NCBI GenBank assembly: GCA_947598155.1
Contig: CANQFC010000003.1
Location: forward strand, 62,001 to 126,000
Length of the DNA: 64,000 bases
Reading direction: 5' to 3'
Source: an uncultured Clostridia bacterium
GTDB taxonomy: Bacteria > Bacillota > Clostridia > Oscillospirales > Acutalibacteraceae
A program made the position numbers and the translations under genes. The notes beneath the pieces are model-generated. The model did no database searches, was not told where the DNA came from, and saw nothing but the letters and a program-made list of their open reading frames with translations. Shown in pieces: positions 2,136 to 47,439 of the stretch. Positions within the stretch are counted from its first letter, which is position 1, and every line of letters starts with the position of its first letter.

Positions 2136-2924
2136 TCACAACACCTTAGAAAGAAAATCTCTAAGCCTCGCGTTTTGCGGATTGCCGAAAATCTGCTCGG
2201 GAGAGCCTTCTTCCAAAATTTTACCGTCGTCAATAAAGAGGACTCTGCTGCCGACTTCTCTCGCAAAGCCCATTTCGTGCGTAACGACAACCATAGTCAT
2301 TCCCGCCTCGGCAAGCTCTTTCATAACGTCCAGAACCTCGCCGACCATTTCAGGGTCAAGAGCGCTTGTCGGCTCGTCAAAAAGAATGACGTCGGGATTC
2401 ATCGCAAGCGAGCGCACAATGGCGACTCTCTGCTTTTGGCCTCCCGAAAGCTGCGACGGGTAAGCGTCCGCTTTATCCTCAAGCCCTATGCGCTTAAGCA
2501 GCGCCATAGCCTCTTCTCTTTTTTGCTCTTTGATTTCTTTTGAGGATTTTCTCTGCGCGCGGCTGAGCTTTTTATTCTCCTTCTTCGCAACAAGCACAGG
2601 CGAGAGCATTATGTTTTCAAGAATAGTCTTATTGTTGAAAAGGTTAAAATGCTGAAAAACCATTCCCATCTTCTGGCGGTGAACGTTTATGTCGACCTTC
2701 ATATCGGTAATATCCACGCCATGGTACAGTATTTTACCGGAGGTTGCGTCCTCCATACAGTTAAGACAGCGCAGAAATGTGCTTTTGCCGGAACCCGACG
2801 GCCCGATAACAACGACTTTATCGCCTTTGTTTATTGTGATGTCAATCCCTTTAAGAACCTCATTGTCGCCGAAGGATTTGTGCAAATCAACGACCTCTAT
2901 CAATTTTTTCCCGTTATCTGTCAC
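2136..2924 (-). CDS. Polar amino acid ABC transporter ATP-binding protein
   Basis: ATPase of an amino-acid importer of the GlnQ/HisP group, acting on the inner face of the membrane with the permease upstream. Visible motifs are Walker [10 protein letters not shown] (about 41-49), Q-loop FQHFNLF, signature LSGGQKQR, Walker [13 protein letters not shown] and the switch histidine in VVTHE. It has 262 residues against about 240 in relatives; the extra length is a lysine/arginine-rich insert ([22 protein letters not shown] region, about residues 112-132) just after the Q-loop region. It overlaps the permease gene by 11 bp, so the two are translationally coupled. The substrate is not deducible from this subunit. 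Confidence 0.93.
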
Positions 2925-3618
2925 TTCTTCTCAGCCTCCGTTCCATAAGCTTAATGCACAGCGTTATTATCAAAACTATTACAATATAAATCAGCGCCAT
3001 AACAAGATACGGAATCATAAATTCATAGTTGTTTGTACCTATGTATTTAAACGCGACGTAAAGGTCGTTCGCGCCTACAAAGCTGACTATTGAAGTATCC
3101 TTAATAAGGGCTATAAATTCGTTTCCGAGCGTGGGAAGAATATTCTTTACCGCCTGCGGAATAACTATTTTTGTCATCGTAGTCAAATAACTCATTCCGA
3201 CGGAGCGTCCGCCCTCCATTTGACCGGGGTCAACGGAATTGATGCCGCCTCTCATTATTTCGGATACATACGCGCCGCTGTTCATACCGTAAATTATAAT
3301 ACACGACCCTAACGCCGAAATATGCAGCCCGAGCAGCGGACGGATTACATAATAACCGACCAACAGCTGAACGACCAGCGGCGTACCCCTGAAAAACGCA
3401 ACATAAACCTGACAGATTTTGTCGAGTACGCGGGGAATTACCTTGTATTTCGGCATAACCTCAACCGAGGCTATGACCACTCCTATAAATATACCTATTA
3501 TCAAGCCCAAAACGGCTATGATAATTGTGTTCCGCAAGCCCTCAAGTACCATTCGGTAGCCGCCGTAATCGACAAACGCTCTTAAAAAAGCCTCCCATTT
3601 AGCTTCAAAATTTCCCAT
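2914..3618 (-). CDS. Polar amino acid ABC transporter permease (HisM/GlnP family)
   Basis: Integral membrane subunit of 234 residues with about five hydrophobic segments. The cytoplasmic coupling (EAA) loop is seen as [21 protein letters not shown] near residues 150-170, following the family pattern [12 protein letters not shown]. It lies in the order binding protein - permease - ATPase, the standard arrangement for amino-acid importers. A weak hairpin separates it from the binding-protein gene, which would fit the usual excess of binding protein. Its own ribosome site is weak. Confidence 0.92.
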
Positions 3619-3786: not shown

Positions 3787-4674
3787 TTACTGCAACGCGT
3801 TGATTGCTTTTGTAATGCGTTCTGCCGGAGCTTCATCAATGATAACGTAGTCAACATCGCCGTTAAGCATAGCCGTTACCGCGAGAGAGCCGTTTGTGTA
3901 GCCTACCGATTTTGCCGTAAGGCCGTCAAAACCGAGGTCCTCGCTTCCGTCAACATAAGAATTTCCCGTAGTGCCTGTCTGAACGCCGATTTTAACCGTT
4001 TCCGGGAGCTCTTTAAGAAGAGCGGATACTTCCTGAACCGTCTTGCAGTTATCAAATTTAGTATCGGTGCTCTTAACTATGAGTTTCTGCGAGGCGTTAA
4101 AATATGTATCGGAGAACTTAACGAGTTTTTCACGCTCGGCGCTTACCGTAATACCTGCCATACCTATGTCGGCGCCGTTTGTATTGAGAGTTGTGAAGAT
4201 TGAGTCAAAGTCGATAACCTTAATTACAAGCTCGCGTCCGAGGTAATCGGCAAGCAATTTCGCAAGCTCCATATCAATACCTGCGAACTTGTCGCCTATT
4301 GTGTATTCAAATGGCGCAAAACCGGGCTCTGTAACAACAACCAGCTGGTCTTTTGTCTTATCCTCAACCGCAGAAGTAATTTCAACGGGCTTTGCGTCGC
4401 CGAAATTGTTGTTTACGATTTCGTCAAATTTGCCGTTTTCCTTAATCTCCGCAAGGAACTTGTTAACCGAATTAAGAAGTTCCTCGTCATTGGGGTTTAC
4501 CGCGAACGCGTACTGCTCATCTGAAAGCTTAACGTCAATAACCTTTGCCGTTACCTTTGCGCTCGGCGTGTCGCCGGAAGGCTCGCCGTCCGTCTTTTTG
4601 CCGCAGGCGGCAAAGACAGCCCCAACAATGACAAACGCCATAATTACTGCTAAAATTTTAAATGCTTTTTTCAT
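3787..4674 (-). CDS. Amino-acid ABC transporter binding lipoprotein, circularly permuted
   Basis: Extracellular substrate-binding lipoprotein of the SBP_bac_3 family (295 residues). A lipoprotein signal peptide with lipobox VFAAC puts the lipidated Cys at 24. The order of parts is unusual. Residues 45-93 (IDVKLSDEQYAFAVN to FDEIVNNNFGD) match what normally forms the last strand and helices of the family. Residues 111-200 then hold the usual start (LVVVTEPGFAPFEY, DIGMAGITVSAER) and 201-285 the second lobe (GVQTGTTGNSY, DYVIIDEAPAE). The protein stops at INALQ, where relatives continue into the segment found here at the N-terminus. Ligand residues look intact, so I infer a working, permuted protein. 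A strong promoter and possible arginine boxes lie upstream. Confidence 0.88.
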   Translation of the reverse strand: MKKAFKILAVIMAFVIVGAVFAACGKKTDGEPSGDTPSAKVTAKVIDVKLSDEQYAFAVNPNDEELLNSVNKFLAEIKENGKFDEIVNNNFGDAKPVEITSAVEDKTKDQLVVVTEPGFAPFEYTIGDKFAGIDMELAKLLADYLGRELVIKVIDFDSIFTTLNTNGADIGMAGITVSAEREKLVKFSDTYFNASQKLIVKSTDTKFDNCKTVQEVSALLKELPETVKIGVQTGTTGNSYVDGSEDLGFDGLTAKSVGYTNGSLAVTAMLNGDVDYVIIDEAPAERITKAINALQ

Positions 4675-10027: not shown

Positions 10028-10612
10028 TTATGAATATTCTCTAATTATGCCGCTGGCGATTTCACGCTTTGTTTTTGAAGTGTCCATCGCCTGCTTTTCT
10101 ATATATCGGTGTGCGTCCGGCTCGGTCATATTCTTTTTTTCTATAAGCAGCCATTTTGCCCTGTTTATGAGTCTTATTTCCTCCATTTTTTCTTCAATGG
10201 TAAAGGTCTTCTTTTCAAGCCGGCGAAGCTTTTCCCGCATTGAGACCATCCATATTATGCCCTGCGAAACCATAGCCGCTGATGTAGGTTTCGGCAAAGG
10301 AAATACGCCGTACTCAATAATCTGCGCGCAAATATTGTCAAAAAGCTCAGTTTTTACAAGCTGCATACAAACCGTATTTTTCCCTGTTGAAACGTCGATA
10401 GCAAGCTTTGTGCCGAAATCGTCGGGCAAAGGTGAATTGATTATTACAAAATCATAACTGCTTTCAAGAAGCAACCGGTTTGCCGAGGCAACGCTGCCCG
10501 TAAACGTTACTTTTTTGAAATTTCTTTCCGTAAGAAGAGGTTTAAGCGCCTCATTCATCTTTTCAGAGGATGAAACAACCAAGACGCAGTACGAACGCCC
10601 TTCGTAAACCAT
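10028..10612 (-). CDS. ANTAR-domain regulator with degenerate receiver
   Basis: A 194-residue two-domain protein. The N-terminal response-regulator-like part (1-115) lacks the acidic pocket (VVSSSEKM where VVDDE is expected) and has Asn59 at the phospho-acceptor position (VIINSPLPDDFG), although the conserved Lys is present (PLPKP, 108). A short coiled linker (125-145) leads to a C-terminal ANTAR domain (about 144-192: EEIRLINRAKWLL, MTEPDAHRYIEKQAMDTSKTKREIA). ANTAR domains bind paired RNA hairpins with hexaloops and stop transcription termination. The gene lies 38 bp after glnA on the same strand, a typical place in Clostridia for a nitrogen-control antiterminator. Signalling by phosphorylation seems unlikely. 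Confidence 0.88.
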   Translation of the reverse strand: MVYEGRSYCVLVVSSSEKMNEALKPLLTERNFKKVTFTGSVASANRLLLESSYDFVIINSPLPDDFGTKLAIDVSTGKNTVCMQLVKTELFDNICAQIIEYGVFPLPKPTSAAMVSQGIIWMVSMREKLRRLEKKTFTIEEKMEEIRLINRAKWLLIEKKNMTEPDAHRYIEKQAMDTSKTKREIASGIIREYS

Positions 10613-10650
10613 ATATGTTTCACCCTCCTTTTTTAATATTTTTCGGAAAA

Positions 10651-11859
10651 TTATTCGCAGTATGTTTTTATCATCATCGCGGGCAAACTCTTCGCGATAA
10701 ATTCGCTCGACCCCGCTATTTTAACCGCTTCTTCTCTTGTCTGCGGCAAACGCTTATATTCCGATAGCGTTTTTCCGTCCGCTTTATATAAATTTATATT
10801 TGCGGGTCTTGGCAGTTCAGCACATTTTTTTATGCCGTCAAGCCCGGCGTATATAAGCAGAGCGAAAGCCAAATATGGGTTGGCGGACGGGTCCGGCGAG
10901 CGGAGCTCCGCTCTTTTATACTCGCCGTATGCCGCAGGTATCCTCACAAGCTGCGAACGGTTTTCGCTTGACCACGATACATATTTCGGCGCTTTGTCAC
11001 TGCCCAGACGCTCATACGATTTTTCAGTAGGATTTAAAAACGCTGTCATTTCGGGTACGTGCTCCAAAACGCCTGCTATCATAGAAGTTCTGACGTCGGA
11101 GCCGTCTTTGCTCTTCACTGACATATTTATATGCAGCCCGTTGCCCGGCTTATCCTTGAGCGGTTTCGGCGAAAACGAGGCGTACAGACCGTTTCTTGCG
11201 GCGATAGCGCTTACAACGTTTGCAAATGCAATGGTGTTATCCGCCGCGGTAAGAGCGTTTGAATACCTGAAATCAATTTCATTCTGACCGGGGCCCTCTT
11301 CGTGGTGCGAGCTTTCCGGCCGCATTCCCATCTGCTCCAGAGTTAAGCAAATCTCTCGGCGGACATTTTCGCCCTTGTCGGCAATGGCGACATCCATATA
11401 ACCGGCATTGTCGTAAGGAATATCGGTAGGGTCTCCGTTTTCATCGAGCTTAAAGAGATAAAACTCCATTTCGGCGCCGAAGAAAAACTCATATCCCTCG
11501 TCTTTGGCGTCTTTAACCGCCTTTATTAAAATACTTCTTGTGTCATTTTCAAAAAGTCTGCCGTCGGGGTATGTTACAGTGCAGAACATCCTCACTACCT
11601 TGCCGTGCTCCGGCCGCCACGGCAAAATTGAAAGCGTGTCCGGGTCAGGGTGAAGGAGCAAGTCTGAATAAACGTCTCCGCCAAAGCCCTCAATGGCGGA
11701 AGCGTCAATCGCAATACCAAATTCAAAAGCCCGTTTAAGCTCGTCAGGCATTATGGAAATATTTTTCTGCTTTCCGAAAACATCGCAAAAGGCAAGCCGA
11801 ATAAATTTGACGTCCTCTTCGATTACGAACTGCATTATTTCCTCTTTTGTGTATTTCAT
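10651..11859 (-). CDS. glnA: Glutamine synthetase, type I short form
   Basis: Makes glutamine from glutamate, ammonia and ATP. The protein (402 residues from the start chosen) begins MKYTKEEIMQFVIEEDVKFIRLAF, contains the DVFGKQKN beta-grasp part, the metal/ATP motif FFFGAEMEFYLF (about 125), SSHHEEGPGQNEIDFRYS (about 185) and the KPLKDKPGNGLHINMS motif (about 235). The longer open frame to 11988 starts upstream of the -10 box of its own promoter, so the ATG at 11859 is used. Its ribosome site is weak (GAAAGCTGGTG). The length is below the 440-470 of many GS-I and fits the short clostridial subgroup. It is followed by the ANTAR gene. Confidence 0.92.
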   Translation of the reverse strand: MKYTKEEIMQFVIEEDVKFIRLAFCDVFGKQKNISIMPDELKRAFEFGIAIDASAIEGFGGDVYSDLLLHPDPDTLSILPWRPEHGKVVRMFCTVTYPDGRLFENDTRSILIKAVKDAKDEGYEFFFGAEMEFYLFKLDENGDPTDIPYDNAGYMDVAIADKGENVRREICLTLEQMGMRPESSHHEEGPGQNEIDFRYSNALTAADNTIAFANVVSAIAARNGLYASFSPKPLKDKPGNGLHINMSVKSKDGSDVRTSMIAGVLEHVPEMTAFLNPTEKSYERLGSDKAPKYVSWSSENRSQLVRIPAAYGEYKRAELRSPDPSANPYLAFALLIYAGLDGIKKCAELPRPANINLYKADGKTLSEYKRLPQTREEAVKIAGSSEFIAKSLPAMMIKTYCE

Positions 11860-11959
11860 AACGCACCAGCTTTCATTTAACGGTGATTTAAAAATAAAAC
11901 GCTCATCTTGACAAACGGACTGCTTGCCCGAATCAAAATAAACGCCTTCTCTCATACAA

Positions 11960-11988
11960 ATTATACATAATATATAAGAAAATGTCAA
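11960..11988 (-). promoter_or_regulatory. glnA promoter
   Basis: Minus-strand TTGACA (11983-11988), 17-bp spacer, TATAAT (11960-11965). The start site is about 11952, leaving a leader of about 93 nt. I searched that leader for an A1/G4 hexaloop hairpin and found none that is convincing. Confidence 0.8.
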
Positions 11989-12045
11989 TAACGGCGTTTA
12001 AAAATCGGTTCCTTTGACAAATTTTTTTAAGCGCCCATTTTTTTA

Positions 12046-12074
12046 TTGACAAACCAAAAACAGAATTGTATAAT
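12046..12074 (+). promoter_or_regulatory. gdhA promoter
   Basis: TTGACA (12046-12051), 17-bp spacer, TATAAT (12069-12074). Transcription would start about 12081, at the beginning of the antitermination-type leader. Confidence 0.85.
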
Positions 12075-12083
12075 TATTCGCAT

Positions 12084-12128
12084 AAGGCAATGGCGTCTTT
12101 GAATTTTAGGGTTCAAAGGCGCTTTTTT
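12084..12128 (+). promoter_or_regulatory. gdhA leader: hexaloop hairpin overlapping a terminator
   Basis: AAGGC-AATGGC-GTCTT (12084-12099) forms a 5-bp stem with a hexaloop whose position 1 is A and position 4 is G, the signature of ANTAR target hairpins. Its loop end and 3' arm (12093-12099) are also the 5' arm of an 11-bp terminator (GCGTCTTTGAA/TTCAAAGGCGC, 12093-12122) followed by six T. The two structures exclude each other, so stabilising the first would prevent termination. I cannot find a second perfect hexaloop; the candidate TTTAGG loop inside the terminator breaks the A1/G4 rule. The binding protein would most simply be the ANTAR protein encoded at 10028. Confidence 0.6.
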
Positions 12129-12139
12129 GCGTTTTTTAG

Positions 12140-13486
<1,347 letters not shown>

Positions 13487-13515
13487 ACCTCCATATGGGG
13501 TTAGAATCATAACGG

Positions 13516-13565
13516 CATAAAGGCAATGACGTCTTAGATTTTATCGGGTTGTCATTGTCTTTATG
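13516..13565 (+). promoter_or_regulatory. gdhA-asnB intergenic hairpin with the same hexaloop motif
   Basis: AAGGC-AATGAC-GTCTT (13520-13535) repeats the gdhA leader hairpin with a single loop change, keeping A1 and G4. The same 5' arm can instead pair over 15 bp with GTCATTGTCTTTATG (13551-13565), forming a long competing helix. No clear T run follows, so the outcome could be attenuation, processing or gdhA 3' end formation. It lies upstream of the asnB T-box. Confidence 0.5.
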
Positions 13566-13599
13566 TGCATTTCGGAGGAATTTTTTATATTAAAAATAA

Positions 13600-13795
13600 A
13601 AGCGTTTGAGAAAAGAGAAGTAACAGAGCCAACCGTTTTCAGAGAGCGCCGTCGCTGAAAAGGCGCAGCGAGTCCTTTGCGAATAACACTTTTCGAGCCG
13701 TTTGCCGTGCGTTAACCGGCAATTTAGAAAATTAAGTAAAAAAATAGGTGGCACCGCGAGAACAGCACTTGCCCTATTGAATGCTGATTTAGCTT
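13600..13795 (+). promoter_or_regulatory. T-box leader, asparagine-specific, upstream of asnB
   Basis: The T-box core AGGTGGCACCGCG is at 13746-13758. The bulge TGGC (13749-13752) would pair with a tRNA ending GCCA, as expected for tRNA-Asn with discriminator G. The Stem I specifier region reads GAAT-AAC-AC (13681-13689), giving codon AAC for Asn. The antiterminator helices AATAGG/CCTATT and GCGAG/CTTGC are complete. No strong competing terminator with a T run is visible before AAGGAG (about 13799), so control may be through a weak hairpin (CAGCA/TGCTG) or at translation. Confidence 0.88.
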
Positions 13796-13814
13796 TGTAA
13801 GGAGAGAGATTTTT

Positions 13815-17032
<3,218 letters not shown>

Positions 17033-46275: not shown

Positions 46276-47439
46276 ATGCAACCAATTTTAGAGTGCTGTT
46301 GCGGTGTTGACGTTCATAAAGATATGATTGAAGCTTGTATTATCTGCGGTACGGAGAATCCGATTTTTATTCGGAAACAGTTTCAAACGCTTCCGTCTGC
46401 TCTGCAAGACTTTGTGCATTGGCTTTTTGAAAATGACTGTTTTCATATCGCCATGGAAAGCACCGGTGTTTATTGGCGTCCGGTTTATGAAGCGATTGAA
46501 GAGTTTTCGCCCTACTATGAAAGCATCATCGTTTCTAATGCGCACAACATGCGCAATTTACCGGGCAGAAAAACTGATGTAAAAGACGCAGAATGGATTG
46601 CAACGCTTTTACAGCACGGCTTGCTTGAGCCGTCTTTTGTACCAAACAGAATCATTCGGGATTTGCGCGAATTTTCACGCACTTACAAAAACTGTATCGG
46701 CGAGAAGAGCCGATGTCTAAACCGTTTGGAAAAATTTTTGCAAACACACGGATTTAAATTGTCCAGTGTGTTAAGTGACATCAACAGTCTAAGCGGCATC
46801 CGCATTTTAACCGTCCTCTCGGAACGAGGTTCTTTATCTGTAGATGATGTCAAGAAAGCAATCAGCAGTAATACCAAAAAATCCGCCACCGAAATTCAAT
46901 CCGCAATCTGTGGAAGATTAAATCCAAACGAATGCTTCTTACTGAACGATTTTCTTGAACAACTACGAATTATCCAAAATCACATCGACAAAATCTTGTC
47001 TAAAATGCAAGAGCTTGCCGCGCCTTATGCGAATATCCTCGAACAATTAGATTCTATCGTCGGAATTGATATTACTGCCGCACTTTTAATTTTAGCAGAA
47101 ATCGGTCCTGCTCCGCAAGAGAATTTTAAAACTTCTGCTCATCTTTGTTCTTGGGCGGGACTTTCGCCGCGTAATGACCAAAGTGCAGGTAAGATTAAGT
47201 CCAAAAAAATTTTACCCGGAAATCCGTACATCAAGTCTATTTTGTGTCAGGTTTCGTGGTCGGCGGTTCGCTCTCGAAAAACACCTTTCGGTATGTGGTT
47301 TTGGTCGCATCAAGGCAAGTTAGGCAAGAAAAAAGCGATTGTAGCTGTTTCAAGAAAAATACTTTCTCTCATTTACTATTTACTTTCTACAGGTCAATTT
47401 TACAATAACGAGGTCGCTATGCGCCCTTATCTGAATTGA
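46276..47439 (+). mobile_element. IS110-family transposase (DEDD recombinase)
   Basis: A 387-residue recombinase. The RuvC-like N-terminal part has Asp in CGVDVHKDMIEA (about 11), Glu in AMESTGVYW (about 59), and the Asp pair in GRKTDVKDAEWIA (about 102 and 105). A coiled middle (about 150-250) leads to the Transposase_20 region with IVGIDITAALLILAEIG, FKTSAHLCSWAGLSPRNDQSAGKIKSKK (catalytic Ser about 306) and YIKSILCQVSW. It looks intact. GGGAGTG precedes the ATG. The element separates the MacB-like cluster from the lipoprotein gene and may be responsible for the cluster's border. Confidence 0.93.

Follow-up and report, generated by a model that had tools for sequence, protein, structure and literature searches.

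Can a substrate-binding lipoprotein work when the segment that normally ends its chain stands at the front? The question is raised by a gene in a 64,000-nucleotide stretch of DNA from an uncultured Clostridia bacterium (contig CANQFC010000003.1, positions 62,001 to 126,000; "the window" below always means this whole stretch), whose product belongs to the SBP_bac_3 family of substrate-binding proteins (SBPs). In a Pfam scan SBP_bac_3 (PF00497) was the sole family above cut-off (104.6 bits, cut-off 26.4, strongest over residues 111–225), and no type I family was among the six listed. We call its parts blocks C, N and M (residues 44–92, 109–216 and 226–294); a canonical SBP_bac_3 protein reads N-M-C and the window protein reads C-N-M. 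Such an arrangement had been proposed by the initial annotation, with the C-terminal SBP_bac_3 segment directly after the lipobox and the canonical N-terminal part starting only at about residue 111. Sequence comparison confirms that the C-terminal segment precedes the N-terminal part, and we consider it quite probable (about 0.85) that the protein is a working circularly permuted amino-acid receptor, a two-lobed trap likely supplying the permease and ATPase whose genes lie downstream, that it probably arose by duplication, and that it likely carries its lipid anchor on lobe 2.

In a phmmer search of PDB sequences, residues 111–286 matched residues 12–173 of AncQR (4zv1), and residues 42–93 matched its C-terminal end (182–233) as a separate piece (independent E-value (i-E) 0.00076). 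TmArgBP gave the same two-piece, out-of-order match (0.00076), as did, weakly, AbpA and GlnBP (i-E 0.14 and 0.3). The top match, 6h30, is a tandem two-domain chain, to which residues 55–278 align in one run across the domain junction, as expected of a rotated chain. With a profile of 68 sequences the two AncQR pieces scored 108.7 and 35.8 bits. A hidden Markov model (HMM) whose C-terminal segments all came from 34 canonical relatives scored 47.9 bits at residues 44–88; shuffled versions of the segment gave any match at all in 977 of 1000 cases, the best at 8.4 bits. The same HMM reached at best -2.8 bits on residues 101–295, i.e. these hold no second C-terminus by sequence. An HMM built from the full 34 canonical sequences was then used to score every fourth offset of the mature chain: rotated to start at residue 92 it scored 175.2 bits (profile 2–214), against 147.7 bits unrotated (profile 2–165) and a median of 127.7 over all offsets. 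Two canonical controls, L026 (one of the 34 HMM proteins) and P0104 (not among them), scored highest unrotated. The 34 canonical rows behind both HMMs had in turn been collected by means of block HMMs made from C-N-M proteins. The likeness of residues 45–93 to the family's C-terminus, on which the proposal turned, thus appears both in the AncQR pieces and in the canonical C-segment HMM; nor does the segment look like an extra domain beside a normal C-terminus, none being found elsewhere by sequence and the predicted model (see below) being confident.

The order is not peculiar to this gene. As the initial annotation had suggested, we looked among relatives, and of the 120 matches listed, the window's own cluster among them, 117 read C-N-M. 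The order also recurs in 20 of the 59 near genomes, counting the source genome, and in named assemblies that several studies produced. Within the class set, 138 of 291 genomes had a match, of which 29 were read as C-N-M and 15 as M-C-N; the remaining 94 show a canonical-looking one-run match from N into M (except G160, with N alone, and G127, over 3–275), and the six of these that were read (L120, L132, L133 and L141–L143) are all canonical. In the phylum set 69 of 398 genomes had a match, and nine places from this set were retrieved. Among plasmid records 193 had a match and none covered 80% of the query. Thirty phage records had a match, three of which cover 80% of the query, all short unannotated fecal "Bacteriophage sp." entries that are probably bacterial contigs (GenBank MT839615, MT839399 and MT839371, with relatives 45–53% identical over 95–98% of the window protein).

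All three cyclic orders, N-M-C, C-N-M and M-C-N, exist in Clostridia and their kin. We classified 124 rows as C-N-M (65), M-C-N (25) or canonical (34), a set from which we left out the partial L021, the duplicates L041, L042 and L044, the window genome's own paralogue L002, the lytic-transglycosylase-like L030 and L032, the tandem L104 and L105, and SBP fusion or partial loci with no C or N match. Of the relatives of the M-C-N protein L022, 120/120 among the matches listed are M-C-N; for L074, likewise M-C-N, the 120 matches listed comprise 117 M-C-N proteins, two with an extra weak M match (7 bits) and P0242. The operon context recurs in nearly all loci: a permease match lies downstream of 64/65 C-N-M, 24/25 M-C-N and 33/34 canonical loci (in L106, the sole M-C-N locus without one, receptor and permease form a single chain), an ATPase match downstream of 64/65, 25/25 and 33/34, respectively. 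The window gene, too, stands with a permease of the polar amino acid uptake transporter (PAAT) type and an ATPase, the usual though not universal setting of SBP_bac_3 genes. Our lipobox pattern is found in 64/65 C-N-M, 24/25 M-C-N and 34/34 canonical proteins.

A third cut lies inside M, just after GVQxGTTG, in L149, L150 and L151, which come from three genomes of one family (G442, G623 and G577); their chains open with the latter half of M and close with GVQxGTTG plus a brief tail (C and N blocks matched in all three, both M halves by HMM in L151 only and otherwise by eye). The three cut sites (M|C, N|M and inside M) all map to lobe 2, in the part of the chain bounded by the first (196–201) and second (53–59) hinge strands in the numbering of the window protein. 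Permuted units also occur fused to permeases: L106 is M-C-N joined at its end to a permease (PF00528), L105 (1561–3804, G040:C5) and L154 (G480:C29) carry M-C-N twice and then a permease, and L104 (620–4291, G037:C5; 1223 amino acids) carries it four times before the permease. In L104, L105 and L154 the M blocks were called by eye, as was the permease in L105 and L154. These three chains begin with half a binding domain, and their first and last pieces might pair, closing the string. L043 (G000:C1:407011–407985) is a frame of 1099 amino acids with two SBP_bac_3 matches, of which one exceeds the cut-off and the other does not, ahead of what by eye is a sensor histidine kinase-like part. P0242 (379 amino acids, M-C-N-M-C) was considered as a duplication intermediate and rejected: up to about residue 232 its sequence is that of the M-C-N protein P0359, and beyond this it is of canonical type. 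Because of this abrupt switch, and because it is a lone protein encoded on one contig of 1822 bases, we count it as probably a chimeric contig or a recombinant.

Structure prediction, another check proposed at the outset, gave a confident AlphaFold model from the alignment (pLDDT, the predicted local distance difference test score, of 89; confident over 41–295), built on 68 sequences that all have the same order. The predicted model has the two-lobed periplasmic-binding fold. In it the C block supplies the last lobe-2 strand (43–46), the second hinge strand (53–59) and two lobe-1 helices (64–79 and 82–90), with strand positions from the model and lobe names that we assign by analogy with GlnBP. 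Two details of the initial annotation are corrected. The gene lies on the minus strand; and the second hinge strand, which had been placed before DEAPAE, is in the model QYAFAVN (53–59), in the N-terminal piece, whereas the strand before DEAPAE (276–280) belongs, by analogy with GlnBP, to lobe 2. The C segment is kept in all 68 aligned sequences, in which positions 45, 50, 53, 55, 56, 59, 66, 71, 76, 77, 80, 81, 84, 85 and 91 hardly vary.

The ligand-facing motifs, which the annotation had noted as present, are kept in nearly every row of each order. Arg 181 is found in 65/65 C-N-M, 24/25 M-C-N and 33/34 canonical rows, Asp 280 in 65/65, 25/25 and 34/34, and Gln 232 in 65/65, 23/25 and 32/34. 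The first two we take to be the counterparts of GlnBP R75 and D157, the residues that anchor the amino acid in the cleft. Since the pocket positions are alike across the orders, the protein should, in the manner of GlnH or ArtJ, capture an amino acid and pass it to the downstream permease, and the ligand is likely a polar amino acid. The best named model for the protein is GlnH, far under its cut-off (96.1 against 303 bits), and within 11 kb there are glutamine synthetase-like (by Pfam), glutamate dehydrogenase-like and asparagine synthetase-like (both by eye) genes; from these we would guess at glutamine or a similar amino acid.

How the orders succeeded one another was studied in trees built on sequences re-ordered to the canonical order (88 rows after dropping rows at least 80% identical, 89 chosen rows, and 72 rows). 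The 89-row tree requires nine order changes, or ten with P0242 and the reverted rows labelled separately. In the 72-row set a single M-C-N clade is rejected (p 5e-25), as is placing all canonical rows on one side (p 4e-79). Three proteins outside the 72-row test, the C-N-M L122 and the M-C-N L123 and L139 (both called by eye, with the M block under threshold), belong to another subfamily and suggest further changes. L074, an M-C-N protein from the genus of the window's source, stands in the tree beside the canonical L126, with which its two swapped pieces share 70% and 74.5% identity, and in a quick tree its permease adjoins those of L126 and L129. Given this kinship in both receptor and permease, the receptor was re-ordered and the transporter stayed. 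The tail of the L074 group, ..EDLDPYYLPAE against the canonical ..DKYIPAE, resembles a deletion scar, which is suggestive only.

Change in the opposite direction is apparent in P0104, P0108 and P0111, canonical proteins nested with 13 C-N-M rows in a 16-row clade (support 100/100) and 67–76% identical to the window protein over 63–72% of it. Most simply, they are a return to the canonical order. This direction comes from the tree; their C-terminal tail and N-terminal lead resemble the two halves of the C-N-M linker, a likeness that can be read both ways. The 39 genomes of the window's own genus comprise 18 with C-N-M, 15 with canonical and one with M-C-N proteins and five with none, never two at E 1e-25; G015 and G016, both among the 18, also have distant M-C-N proteins (L139 and L123) of the other subfamily, below that threshold. 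Those C-N-M and canonical genes of the genus that were included in the trees fall in different clades with different permeases, so they are alternatives rather than a fresh change in place. The single permuted order noticed by the initial annotation is real, and to it are added two further permuted forms and an apparent return.

In the canonical fold both chain ends lie in lobe 1, as in GlnBP. In the explanation we propose, the 16-residue linker of the window protein would join these ends and the chain would be opened in lobe 2 instead, so that lobe 1 is formed without a break in the chain and lobe 2 is where the lipid anchor likely attaches. Tandem gene duplication with subsequent trimming of the outer parts is the probable origin of the order, a plausible route as the initial annotation had also suggested. 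The family would tolerate permutation well enough for the cut point to shift several times, and every permuted form would keep lobe 1 continuous and bring the lipid anchor, or in the fusions the permease, to lobe 2. Whether this move was selected or merely tolerated we regard as close to evenly balanced. A bolder and tentative extension is that PAAT receptors of Clostridia and kin form a "rolling" protein, whose ends slide over at least three cuts and back, always in lobe 2, because re-siting the tether (lipid anchor or permease fusion) changes how receptor and permease meet.

Several results weigh against this explanation. AlphaFold with the single sequence gave a pLDDT of 36.3, and the confident model depends on the 68 sequences of the same order; the placement of residues 44–92 in lobe 1 is thus a prediction. 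In Foldseek the TM-score of the best chain-order matches, normalised by query length, is no higher than about 0.5, in alignments that preserve chain order and hence say nothing on residues 44–92. A single C-N-M clade with the M-C-N group nested inside it is not rejected in the 72-row set (p 0.173), so that we claim repeated change for the orders overall and for M-C-N, and not for C-N-M origins. Finally, no clean duplication intermediate was found, the sole candidate (P0242) being discounted. The permutation could also be real and neutral, since SBP termini are close, with duplication, trimming and drift bringing no gain from the moved anchor; this contests only the last step of our explanation, and we give it an even chance. 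It accords with order switches in several lineages, apparently also back (P0104, P0108 and P0111), and with three orders within one genus in the same operon layout. A neutral process, however, would be expected to open lobe 1 too, and all three cuts lie in lobe 2; likewise, the four fusions that were read (L104, L105, L106 and L154) join the permease right after the last N block, a lobe-2 end. This bias comes from few independent events, and the search profile favours an intact C-to-N junction.

The remaining alternatives concern the segment itself. In a swapped dimer the C block would complete lobe 1 of a neighbouring molecule, and the related canonical TmArgBP reportedly swaps its C-terminal helix; with the monomer model confident over 41–295 and a 16-residue linker that should reach the protein's own lobe, we consider this improbable. 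It is very improbable that residues 44–92 are an extra copy or leftover on a truncated SBP that no longer closes: the best Pfam stretch, 111–225, would suit this idea, but the canonical C-segment HMM detects no other C-terminus in the chain, and the segment is conserved in the 68 aligned sequences down to its near-invariant positions. An assembly or gene-calling artefact, conceivable for a draft genome of 33 contigs, is practically negligible given the recurrence of the order in the near genomes and in assemblies from several studies.

Compared with known SBP_bac_3 proteins (GlnH, ArtJ, AncQR, TmArgBP), the window protein is alike in sequence family, pocket, predicted fold, lipobox (also in its relatives) and PAAT operon, and differs in its rotated chain, whose ends now lie in lobe 2. 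In our literature search we recognised just one natural ligand-binding protein with a permuted chain, TpMglB-2 (Tp0684) of Treponema pallidum; searches for permuted glutamine-, amino-acid-, solute-, substrate- and periplasmic binding proteins and for permuted SBP_bac_3 showed no such member of this family among the records listed, in a coverage outside which most subscription journals fall. TpMglB-2 is lipidated and circularly permuted and binds its ligand with conformational change, and its authors consider its topology a possible adaptation to tethering (PMC4990184). It has, in contrast, a type I sugar-binding fold and thus belongs to another family, the "type Ic" label not applying to the window protein; its permuted part is only 13% identical to the canonical one and a single permuted form is described (PMC4990184), whereas the SBP_bac_3 proteins here match clearly, in several forms, with canonical and permuted kin within one genus. 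OpuAC, considered as a second permuted SBP, was set aside, the terms permutation, dislocation and swap being absent from the paper as far as it was checked.

GlnP-type fusions (6h30; L153) hold tandem SBP_bac_3 domains on one chain and are a natural source of C-then-N junctions; they consist of whole canonical domains, unlike L104, L105, L154 and L106, in which M comes first and N last, ahead of the permease. Permutation by duplication, as set out for DNA methyltransferases and swaposin, proceeds by duplication, fusion and a new start and stop, and predicts partly duplicated intermediates (PMC3320104). To that picture SBP_bac_3 adds several cut sites and an apparent return in one family, with no clean intermediate found. 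Thus permuted SBPs and the duplication model were known, and what is new here is a permuted SBP_bac_3 protein with a rich trail of repeated change. One well-understood family offers three cyclic orders, a further cut site, near kin of both kinds, an apparent return and permease fusions, a trail that makes testable both the stepwise origin of permutations and the question whether the position of the tether on a binding protein affects transport. To our knowledge, natural circular permutation has often been viewed as a single old event without a trail. Annotation by domain match overlooks a rearrangement found in many genomes here, and naturally permuted scaffolds are available for amino-acid sensors.

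The layout of the window gene and its operon is given in Table 1; a short linker separates Cys24 of the lipobox from the C block.

Table 1. Parts of the permuted gene and neighbouring operon features (window positions)
Feature	Position	Strand	Details or basis
Permuted SBP_bac_3 gene, predicted lipobox, block order C-N-M, 295 amino acids	3787..4674	minus	ATG start, stop present
AAGGAGA, ribosome-binding-site-like, just upstream of the start codon	4684..4690	minus	sequence (reverse complement)
Signal peptide and lipobox (..VFAAC), Cys24 the predicted lipid anchor point	4603..4674	minus	sequence
C block, residues 44–92, moved to the front	4399..4545	minus	PDB-sequence matches, HMMs, model
Linker, residues 93–108, old C-terminus to old N-terminus	4351..4398	minus	sequence; similar linkers in relatives
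N block, residues 109–216: canonical SBP_bac_3 start, lobe 1 and first hinge strand (196–201)	4027..4350	minus	Pfam, block HMMs, model
M block, residues 226–294: KIGVQTGTTG to DEAPAERITKAINAL, lobe 2, present C-terminal end	3793..3999	minus	matches, model
PAAT-type permease, likely cognate	2914..3618	minus	PF00528, 92.2 bits
ATP-binding cassette (ABC) ATPase, likely cognate	2136..2924	minus	PF00005, 124 bits

Elsewhere in the window, a nitrogen-metabolism cluster at 10028–15395 comprises glutamine synthetase with an adjoining response-regulator-like gene, followed by the glutamate dehydrogenase-like and asparagine synthetase-like genes (by eye). The stretch 1770–2090 recurs at other places of its own genome, once almost in full (98%) and several times in part (up to 97%), and in the window it lies between two 26-base repeats of identical sequence, at 1742 and 2093. 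An IS110-family transposase (PF01548 and PF02371) is encoded at 46276–47439 on the plus strand.
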